Assembly: GCA_002009975.1 (NCBI GenBank)
Contig: MTLP01000032.1
Span: 1 to 64,000 of the forward strand
Direction of reading: 5' to 3'
DNA length: 64,000 nt
Source of the DNA: Thermococcus sp. JdFR-02
Lineage (GTDB): Archaea; Methanobacteriota_B; Thermococci; Thermococcales; Thermococcaceae
Below the pieces are notes generated by a model. The model searched no databases and was not told the DNA's origin. It was given only the letters and a program-made list of their open reading frames with translations. A program made the translations under genes and the position numbers. Shown here piece after piece: positions 48,341-50,877 of this stretch (position 1 is the stretch's first letter; each line of letters starts with the position of its first letter).

Positions 48341-49231
48341 ATGGAAACGTGGAAGATAATAAAATCTCTAACCTTAGGAGCACTGCTTGAAGCTACAATA
48401 CCAAAACCAGGAAATGTAAACCGCTTTAGAGACTTTTATGACCTAACTTTTTATCATTTTCTCTTTGCAGATATTTGGATTGTTGATATTCTCTATGAAG
48501 CGGTTAGGGTTGGTTATCTTATACGAAGAGGAAAGCTGAACCCCAATGAAGCCCGCATTGGGGAGCTAATCAAAAGAGCAGTTCAAAATTCAAGGCAAGT
48601 GCAAAACCATAATCCTAATTTTGGAATAATAACGTTGCAAATACCCTTAGCAATAGCCTTGGGATACTCAAGAGATATTAAAGAAGCGAGAGAAGTCGTT
48701 AAACGCTTGATAGATGAATCAACAGTAAACGACACCATAGAATTTTATAAAGCGATAAGAATTGCAAATCCAAAGGGCATTCCGAGCGGAGTGAAATACG
48801 ATGTGTATAATGAGAAGGTCTTTGATGAGCTTTTTAGAGATAAGATTAATTTAAAACGCTTAGCTGAAATCAGCTGCGAAAGGGAGTTAATATTTAAGGA
48901 ATGGTTAAACGGTTATGAGCTCAGCTACAAAACATTTCTAAGGCTTTTAGAACTCACAAAAGAATCTTCCCTTGAAGAAGCAACCATACGGACTTTTTTA
49001 GAGCTTCTTTCAGAAAACATGGACACGCTGATTATTAGGAAAGCGGGAGAAGAGGAGGCTAAACTTGTTAAAGAAAAAGCAAAAGAAGTATTAAAAGGAA
49101 AGCTTGAATTGGAGGAATTTGATAAATTTTTAAGAGAAAAAGGGGATTTAAGAAACCCTGGGAGTTTAGCAGATATAATGGCAATTGCTCTGGGTTTGTT
49201 GCTTCTAAAGGGATACACTCTTAATCTTTAA
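48341..49231 (+). CDS. CitG/MdcB-family protein (triphosphoribosyl-dephospho-CoA synthase-like)
   Basis: A 296-residue protein of the CitG family. Conserved blocks are EATIPKPGNVNR near residue 20, NPNFGIITLQIPLAIAL near 90, and the C-terminal NPGSLADIMAIAL. Bacterial CitG builds the phosphoribosyl-dephospho-CoA prosthetic group of citrate lyase from dephospho-CoA and ATP. No citrate or malonate enzyme genes are in the window, so the archaeal role is open. GTGAAAGATC precedes the ATG. Its 3' end overlaps the DUF1884 gene on the other strand by 11 bases. Confidence 0.83.
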   Translation: METWKIIKSLTLGALLEATIPKPGNVNRFRDFYDLTFYHFLFADIWIVDILYEAVRVGYLIRRGKLNPNEARIGELIKRAVQNSRQVQNHNPNFGIITLQIPLAIALGYSRDIKEAREVVKRLIDESTVNDTIEFYKAIRIANPKGIPSGVKYDVYNEKVFDELFRDKINLKRLAEISCERELIFKEWLNGYELSYKTFLRLLELTKESSLEEATIRTFLELLSENMDTLIIRKAGEEEAKLVKEKAKEVLKGKLELEEFDKFLREKGDLRNPGSLADIMAIALGLLLLKGYTLNL

Positions 49232-49505
49232 TCACCCTTATTCTCTTTGCTCCCCCCAATCCAATTCCAATTTGCTTTGTATCAAGGACAAGGGCATCTT
49301 CTCCAAGTTCTTCAAGGATTTTAACCTTTAAACCAGAAATCTCATTTACTCCCTCATCACCACCAAATTCTCCATCAACTTGAGCTTTGAAAAAGTCATA
49401 AGCCTCTTTACCAAACAAAACCAAATCTGGCTCAAAGCCTTCCATCTTAAGCTCGTTGGCTTTTTCCTCAACAGCACTTAAAACCCTTATCAGGTCTCCT
49501 CTCAT
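49221..49505 (-). CDS. DUF1884 family protein, related to family 4 (A-domain) encapsulins
   Basis: A 94-residue protein beginning MRGDLIRVLSAVEEKANELKM, with strands GLKVKILEELGEDALVLD and a C-terminal GGAKRIRVIKD. The length and pattern match DUF1884, whose P. furiosus member (PF0899, as I recall) has the A-domain of the HK97 phage capsid fold and has been grouped as a family 4 encapsulin. It could assemble or decorate a small compartment, but family function is not established. The gene follows the OsmC gene by about 70 bases on the same strand. Confidence 0.68.
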   Translation of the reverse strand: MRGDLIRVLSAVEEKANELKMEGFEPDLVLFGKEAYDFFKAQVDGEFGGDEGVNEISGLKVKILEELGEDALVLDTKQIGIGLGGAKRIRVIKD

Positions 49506-49576
49506 AGTATCACCTTAATAGTTCCTAGATCATGAAGAATACTTAAAACTTTTCATGAAAAAAGTAAGAGGAGAAC

Positions 49577-49972
49577 CTAATCCTTAATTATCTCATAGCT
49601 GTAAGTCACTTCCGTTCCGCTCAACTTCAAATGAGCTGAGGCAGAACAGTATTTATCTTGGCTTAATTTTATTGCCCTCTCAGCTTTTTCAGGCTTTACA
49701 TCACCATATATCTTGTAATGTATGTGGGCTTTTTTGTAAATTCTTGGATATTCCTCTCTTCTTTCCCCCTTTATTTCAATTTCTAAGCCTTCTATTGGCT
49801 CCTTCATCTTTTGGAGAATCATGACAACATCAATTGCCGTACATCCAGCTACCGATAAAAGCAAAGTCTTCATTGGGGAAATTCCGTTTTCACCGAAGAT
49901 TATCTTCCCTCCCTCTTCAACTTGAGCCTCAAATTTTCCGTTTCCTAACCATACTACCTTTCCACCTATCAT
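49577..49972 (-). CDS. OsmC/Ohr family protein
   Basis: A 131-residue OsmC-fold protein. The two redox cysteines appear in SVAGCTAIDVVMILQKM (near residue 44) and SQDKYCSASAHLK (near residue 108), the spacing of peroxidatic and resolving cysteines. OsmC/YhfA proteins reduce organic hydroperoxides with thiol donors. The gene is divergent from the SplB-like gene, and the DUF1884 gene follows it on the same strand. Confidence 0.87.
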   Translation of the reverse strand: MIGGKVVWLGNGKFEAQVEEGGKIIFGENGISPMKTLLLSVAGCTAIDVVMILQKMKEPIEGLEIEIKGERREEYPRIYKKAHIHYKIYGDVKPEKAERAIKLSQDKYCSASAHLKLSGTEVTYSYEIIKD

Positions 49973-50031
49973 CGAATCACCATATGATGTTCACAGTAAG
50001 TGTTTTTAATCACTTTGCTTTAGATGAGAGC

Positions 50032-50877
50032 ATGAGTTACATCAGACCTTTTGACCCATGGAAATCAAAGCTCTGCACATGCCCCTTCAAATACACTTTA
50101 AACGTTTATACCGGATGTGACCATGCTTGCATTTACTGTTATATAACCTCTTACATCCCTAAAGCCTTTAAGGTTAGAATTAAGGAGAATTTGCTCCTTG
50201 AAATTGAAAGAGAGCTTAGAAAGCTTAACAAGCGCTTTATTGTATCACTTTCATATTCCTCTGATCCATACCCCACAATAGAGAAACAATTAGGAATAAC
50301 AAGAAAAGCTCTCCAACTTTTTCAACAATACAACGTTAGATGCATGATTTTAACAAAGTCCGATATTTTTGAAAGAGATCTTGACATTTTAAAAAATTTA
50401 AAGTGTGCAGTTGGAATAACTGTCACAACACTAAATGAAGATATAGCAAAACAGCTTGAACCAAATGCCCCTTTGCCAGAAGATAGAATAAAAGCCCTTA
50501 AAAGTGCAAAAAAAGCGGGAATACCTATCTATGCAAGAATTGACCCGATAATTCCATATCTAACATGGGATGATTTTGAAGAGACAGTAAAAGCCCTAAG
50601 CTTTGTCTCTCACATAACTGTCTCAACTTTGAAACTTCGCCCAGATTCTTGGAAAAGAATGAAAGCAAAGTTCCCAGAGGTTATGGAGAAACTTGAGCCT
50701 TTGTATAAGAAAAATAAGCCAATTGGCGGTTATTATTACTTGCCAAAAGAACTTAGATTAAAAATACTAAAAGAAGCCGAGAATATAATAGAGAGCAAAG
50801 GGATAACCTTTGGTTCCTGCAGGGAAGGATATCACTCATATCCTACGTGTGATGGCTCTCATCTGGTTCCTCTGTAG
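50032..50877 (+). CDS. Radical SAM protein, SplB-like family
   Basis: A 281-residue radical SAM protein with the cluster cysteines C29, C33 and C36 in TGCDHACIYCY. It has FIVSLSYSSDPYPTIEKQL and YARIDPIIPYLTWDDFEE downstream, the layout of COG1533 proteins related to spore photoproduct lyase. The C-terminus carries two more cysteines (GSCREGYHSYPTC). The exact substrate is unknown. The longer frame upstream overlaps the OsmC gene and lacks a ribosome binding site, so the ATG at 50032 after GATGAGAG is chosen. Confidence 0.82.
   Translation: MSYIRPFDPWKSKLCTCPFKYTLNVYTGCDHACIYCYITSYIPKAFKVRIKENLLLEIERELRKLNKRFIVSLSYSSDPYPTIEKQLGITRKALQLFQQYNVRCMILTKSDIFERDLDILKNLKCAVGITVTTLNEDIAKQLEPNAPLPEDRIKALKSAKKAGIPIYARIDPIIPYLTWDDFEETVKALSFVSHITVSTLKLRPDSWKRMKAKFPEVMEKLEPLYKKNKPIGGYYYLPKELRLKILKEAENIIESKGITFGSCREGYHSYPTCDGSHLVPL

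Follow-up and report, generated by a model that had tools for sequence, protein, structure and literature searches.

The closest described relatives of the locus analyzed here are the Family 4 encapsulin-like proteins, which Andreas & Giessen (2021) defined from the Pfam family PF08967 (PMC8346489). OsmC represents one of four archaeal Family 4 operon types, often together with MarC, and in all of these the associated genes lie upstream of the A-domain gene (PMC8346489). A-domains make up the five-fold pores of encapsulins, and in Family 1 an N-terminal helix that helps to bind targeting peptides is also present (PMC8346489). The same paper describes the 2PK8 crystal as a dimer, and cites a proteomics study reporting that, in Pyrococcus furiosus, GAPDH is stably complexed with its A-domain protein. 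Our literature search found no experimental work on Family 4 later than this paper, and no publication in which the assembly, cargo or function of a 4A protein is tested. The view of an OsmC-4A pair as cargo and shell is already published there (PMC8346489) and is not new.

We have examined a window of 64,000 nucleotides from Thermococcus sp. JdFR-02, in which an initial annotation had placed a DUF1884 gene after an OsmC gene on the same strand, had identified its product as an HK97 A-domain-like family 4 encapsulin, and had suggested that, were the pair conserved, OsmC could be cargo or a fused-function partner in a minimal shell. Our analysis adds that 4A belongs to the universal core of Thermococcaceae genes, that its neighbor varies, and that it has its own promoter-like signal.

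The 4A gene and its immediate locus

The gene order is as initially annotated, with the DUF1884/ENCP4 gene (49221-49505) following the OsmC gene (49577-49972) on the minus strand across a gap of 71 bp. The former encodes a 94-residue, Family 4A A-domain encapsulin-like protein that exceeds the curated cut-offs of both Pfam PF08967 (ENCP4; 98.4 bits, cut-off 31.4) and NCBIfam NF041190 (encap_f4a; 149.5 bits, cut-off 90), and matches the 2pk8 sequence with an E-value of 9.4e-27. Although Pfam describes PF08967 as type 4B, the NCBIfam 4B model gives only 33.9 bits (cut-off 90) against the 149.5 for 4A, and we therefore regard the protein as 4A. Orthologues are present in 88 of 94 Thermococcaceae genomes at E<=1e-15, so this is no chance open reading frame, and the gene is single-copy in all 74 near-complete genomes of the family; PF08967 was matched in none of 21 genomes from other families of the phylum. 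In the source genome no classical Family 1 encapsulin was found, nor a 4B copy, the 4B query matching the 4A gene alone (E 0.1). A second, 4B copy is found in most relatives, but 49221-49505 is the sole copy in this genome; 4A likewise occurs without 4B in four near-complete, single-copy genomes (G074, G077, G079, and G088).

An AlphaFold2 model built on an alignment of 46 relatives (mean pLDDT 91.5) predicts a stand-alone HK97 A-domain, with two helices against a small beta sheet, and both the charged helix 1 and strand 70-74 are near-invariant among 4A proteins. Foldseek aligns the predicted model with 2PK8 at 52% identity and a TM score of 0.95 over 92 columns, and the matches that follow are mostly HK97-fold capsid proteins and encapsulins, with weak E-values (0.05 and up) and probabilities of up to 0.98. 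The fold comparison and the curated models thus bear out the family 4 identification, and the different fold that was named as a refuting outcome did not emerge. The protein also has the size and fold expected of 4A (about 100 residues with an HK97 A-domain fold), and the same-strand upstream enzyme gene of an operon type, here OsmC. At the sequence level, tblastn of phages returned only two records of one Vibrio phage (E about 3), and a PHROGs search gave no match. Foldseek additionally reports several stand-alone phage proteins of about 80-130 residues whose structural similarity extends across most of the A-domain model, including A0A068EMQ5 (Bacillus phage CP-51, 82 residues), A0A127AW84 (SP-15, 128 residues), F8WPQ2, A0A516KNT4, and A0A6J7VQR9; Family 4 could have its origin in a small phage protein as well as in a truncated capsid protein.

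The OsmC-family peroxidase-like protein is 131 residues long and belongs to OsmC/Ohr by its PF02566 domain (58.8 bits, cut-off 27.5) and by both expected catalytic cysteines, Cys44 and Cys109, which are conserved in all copies examined, whether linked to 4A or not; it falls below the NCBIfam PRK10738 equivalog cut-off, and the assignment holds at the PF02566 family level. Downstream, a CitG-like gene (PF01874, 195.1 bits; 48341-49231, plus strand) converges on the 4A gene and overlaps it by 11 bp, but its score is far below the NCBIfam CitG cut-off and CitG activity is not implied. On the other side, a radical SAM gene (50032-50877, plus strand; PF04055, 74.9 bits on 49987-50877) diverges from OsmC, with 50032 (MSYIRPFDPWK...) as the probable start, chosen by comparison with relatives. 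Because the CitG-like gene converges and the radical SAM gene diverges, OsmC and 4A form an isolated unit with no other immediate same-strand gene.

Linkage and predicted expression across Thermococcaceae

Among relatives the pair is kept in some genomes and separated in others. With adjacency defined as OsmC directly upstream across a gap of up to 260 bp, and linkage as the same strand within 4 kb, 73 near-complete genomes divide into 18 in which OsmC is adjacent to 4A, 32 in which it lies within 4 kb, 22 in which it is elsewhere, and one in which it was undetected. The genes are thus linked in 50 of the 73 and not in the remaining 23, and the source subfamily of OsmC itself is present in 72 of 74 near-complete genomes. 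A gene-order survey of 57 4A loci places OsmC within 4 kb in 38, of which 14 (g1, g5, and g6) are adjacent without exception, with gaps of about 22-71 bp, and 24 (g4, the Thermococcus type) are interrupted by the membrane protein gene marC and sometimes by additional genes. Elsewhere, the gene upstream of 4A encodes a [NiFe] hydrogenase subunit (the g3 genomes examined) or a DHH-family protein (G024 and G028), and in G073 the nearest upstream gene has the opposite orientation. At L042:4352-6577 (minus strand), and likewise in L043, 4A is preceded by a gene for a 741-residue protein that combines S1, OB-fold, and DHH domains, an arrangement outside the four published operon types.

The CitG-like neighbor is kept in all 49 surveyed loci outside g3, compared with 38 of 49 for OsmC, and the radical SAM gene is divergent from OsmC in most linked loci and also in most unlinked OsmC loci. 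Since the CitG-like gene outlasts OsmC and most unlinked OsmC genes keep their radical SAM neighbor, the linkage gives the impression of an ancestral gene block that was disrupted on several occasions. One OsmC copy in G002 (L140, G002:C1:1338386-1338772) is 88% identical to the source OsmC despite coming from a different genus, compared with 67% for its congener G001; the 4A of G002 is 77% identical to the source 4A and is located away from this copy, and OsmC may have moved there without 4A, possibly by horizontal transfer. In the same genome (L082), the peptide units ISILLKSYWN and FNTSKVLLE repeat in spurious open reading frames about 0.1-1.6 kb upstream of 4A, which suggests that a CRISPR-like repeat array separates 4A from MarC.

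The 71 bp intergenic region (49506-49576, minus strand) contains a BRE/TATA-like element, CATGAAAAGTTTTAAGT, and a ribosome-binding-site-like GGTGAT, and is likely to be the 4A gene's own promoter. The TATA of this element starts 43 nt before the 4A start codon, a position in agreement with published Thermococcus promoters, in which the TATA lies 23-27 nt upstream of the start site and leaders are short. Start-site maps are published for T. kodakarensis and T. onnurineus (PMC4247193, PMC5316973). A similar element usually occurs about 34-43 nt before the 4A ATG across genera, regardless of the preceding gene. Scoring of the 57 loci with the published consensus (TTWTAW plus an A-rich BRE) places the best TATA-like site at -50 to -30 in 35, relative to a mean of 12.5 and a maximum of 20 in 200 shuffles. 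In g5 the best-scoring site usually lies nearer the start codon, with another candidate located across the stop codon of OsmC. Regions upstream of MarC have the same TATA-like signal in 14 of 23 cases, so that genes with their own promoters may be frequent in the order, in which case the signal is little guide to the independence of 4A.

Possible roles of the 4A protein

Our preferred reading, to which we give a probability of about 0.5, is that 4A is an HK97 A-domain protein of the core gene set, probably expressed independently, that likely acts as an oligomerizing scaffold or enzyme-associated accessory, and not as an OsmC-dedicated nanocompartment. The protein would be expressed largely from its own promoter and would serve as a small oligomerizing scaffold, or as a docking or stabilizing protein, for soluble enzyme complexes, and would not enclose OsmC in a shell of its own. 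OsmC would itself be an ordinary peroxide-removing enzyme, its upstream position largely reflecting inherited gene order, and possibly one such partner in some lineages. The identity of 4A, its predicted fold, its universality, and its loose linkage to OsmC are all established computationally. The scaffold reading is supported by the curated 4A model and the fold match, by the presence of 4A in every near-complete Thermococcaceae genome, by the range of genes upstream of 4A (OsmC, MarC, a DHH-family protein, a [NiFe] hydrogenase subunit, or none on the same strand), by the looseness of the OsmC linkage, by the TATA-like sites, by the closer tracking of 4A with CitG, and by the P. furiosus GAPDH complex cited in PMC8346489. 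The oligomerization is conjectural, and 2PK8 crystallized as a dimer (PMC8346489). Against the scaffold reading stand the frequency of linkage and the unbroken adjacency in g1, g5, and g6, which fits a functional OsmC-4A pair in those lineages, as well as the TATA-like signal shared with MarC.

That pair could take the form of an open, non-shell complex in which A-domain dimers or pentamers dock on and stabilize OsmC where the genes are adjacent, a rather unlikely possibility to which the short gaps in all 14 g1, g5, and g6 loci, the linkage in 50 of 73 genomes, and the GAPDH-type complex reported in the study that PMC8346489 cites all lend weight. However, linkage has been lost repeatedly with both genes kept, and in most g4 loci the two are separated by MarC and further genes. 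Co-evolution is no more favorable, as in linked genomes 4A distances correlate more closely with those of CitG (r 0.81) than with those of OsmC (r 0.72), and with CitG controlled for, the partial 4A-OsmC correlation is no higher in linked genomes (0.37) than in unlinked ones, where it is 0.57 (the latter being 11 genomes only); the distance correlations thus show no excess 4A-OsmC co-evolution over CitG. Similarly unlikely, in our judgment, is that 4A has left structural work altogether and exists as a small soluble monomer or dimer, perhaps binding a ligand or regulating core metabolism. Its universal single copy irrespective of neighbor, the dimeric 2PK8 crystal as described in PMC8346489, and the near-invariant helix 1 and strand 70-74, which suggest one conserved surface, are consistent with this, although it has no known ligand or catalytic residues and the related capsid A-domains are structural.

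A true minimal nanocompartment, with 4A forming a closed shell around OsmC, as initially suggested and as one option in PMC8346489, is very improbable. Its HK97 A-domain fold and the five-fold pores that such domains form in encapsulins are in its favor, but two thirds of the HK97 fold have no counterpart in the 94 residues, among them the N-terminal helix that helps to bind targeting peptides in Family 1 (PMC8346489), and OsmC is separable from 4A. Targeting peptides on OsmC did not materialize, as comparison of both termini between 38 linked and 19 unlinked OsmC copies revealed no linkage-specific tail; the C-terminal tails are short and variable, with the longest in unlinked copies. OsmC is therefore not recognizable as dedicated cargo marked by a targeting sequence, be it peptide or domain, although an untypical loading mode is still conceivable. 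The shell-and-cargo reading is weak, since about a third of near-complete genomes retain both genes but not their pairing, and we find an OsmC-loaded dedicated nanocompartment unsupported in view of the loss of linkage, the intervening MarC, the missing tail, the lack of excess co-evolution, and the promoter-like signal of 4A. Taken together, the evidence makes a compartment loaded with OsmC, specifically, less likely.

Returning to the scaffold reading, a broader and more tentative proposal is that Family 4A is a universal, autonomously expressed core component of the Thermococcaceae, a viral capsid A-domain module that may organize or stabilize several cytoplasmic enzyme complexes instead of forming enzyme-specific shells. 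Whether very small Family 4 proteins assemble at all, and with what, is a question in the encapsulin field. Our gene-order survey speaks against OsmC as an obligatory partner; the search should be for a partner common to all lineages, or allow for there being none.

Comparison with known systems

The source gene is of a known kind in a known arrangement. It resembles the Family 4A OsmC operon type (PMC8346489; NF041190) in family, fold, and the order of OsmC followed by the A-domain gene, but differs in that there is no intervening MarC and the source genome has no usual 4B. The hydrogenase-type 4A protein PF0899 of P. furiosus (PDB 2PK8) is alike in sequence and predicted structure, at the 52% identity and TM score of 0.95 given above, whereas its gene adjoins [NiFe] hydrogenase genes (PMC8346489) and the source 4A adjoins OsmC. 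With HK97 capsids and Family 1 and 2 encapsulins the likeness is confined to the A-domain, which the 94 residues match at TM scores of about 0.4-0.6 (by query length). The remainder of the HK97 fold is missing from the protein, and the searches of phages and PHROGs detected no sequence-level similarity to phage proteins.
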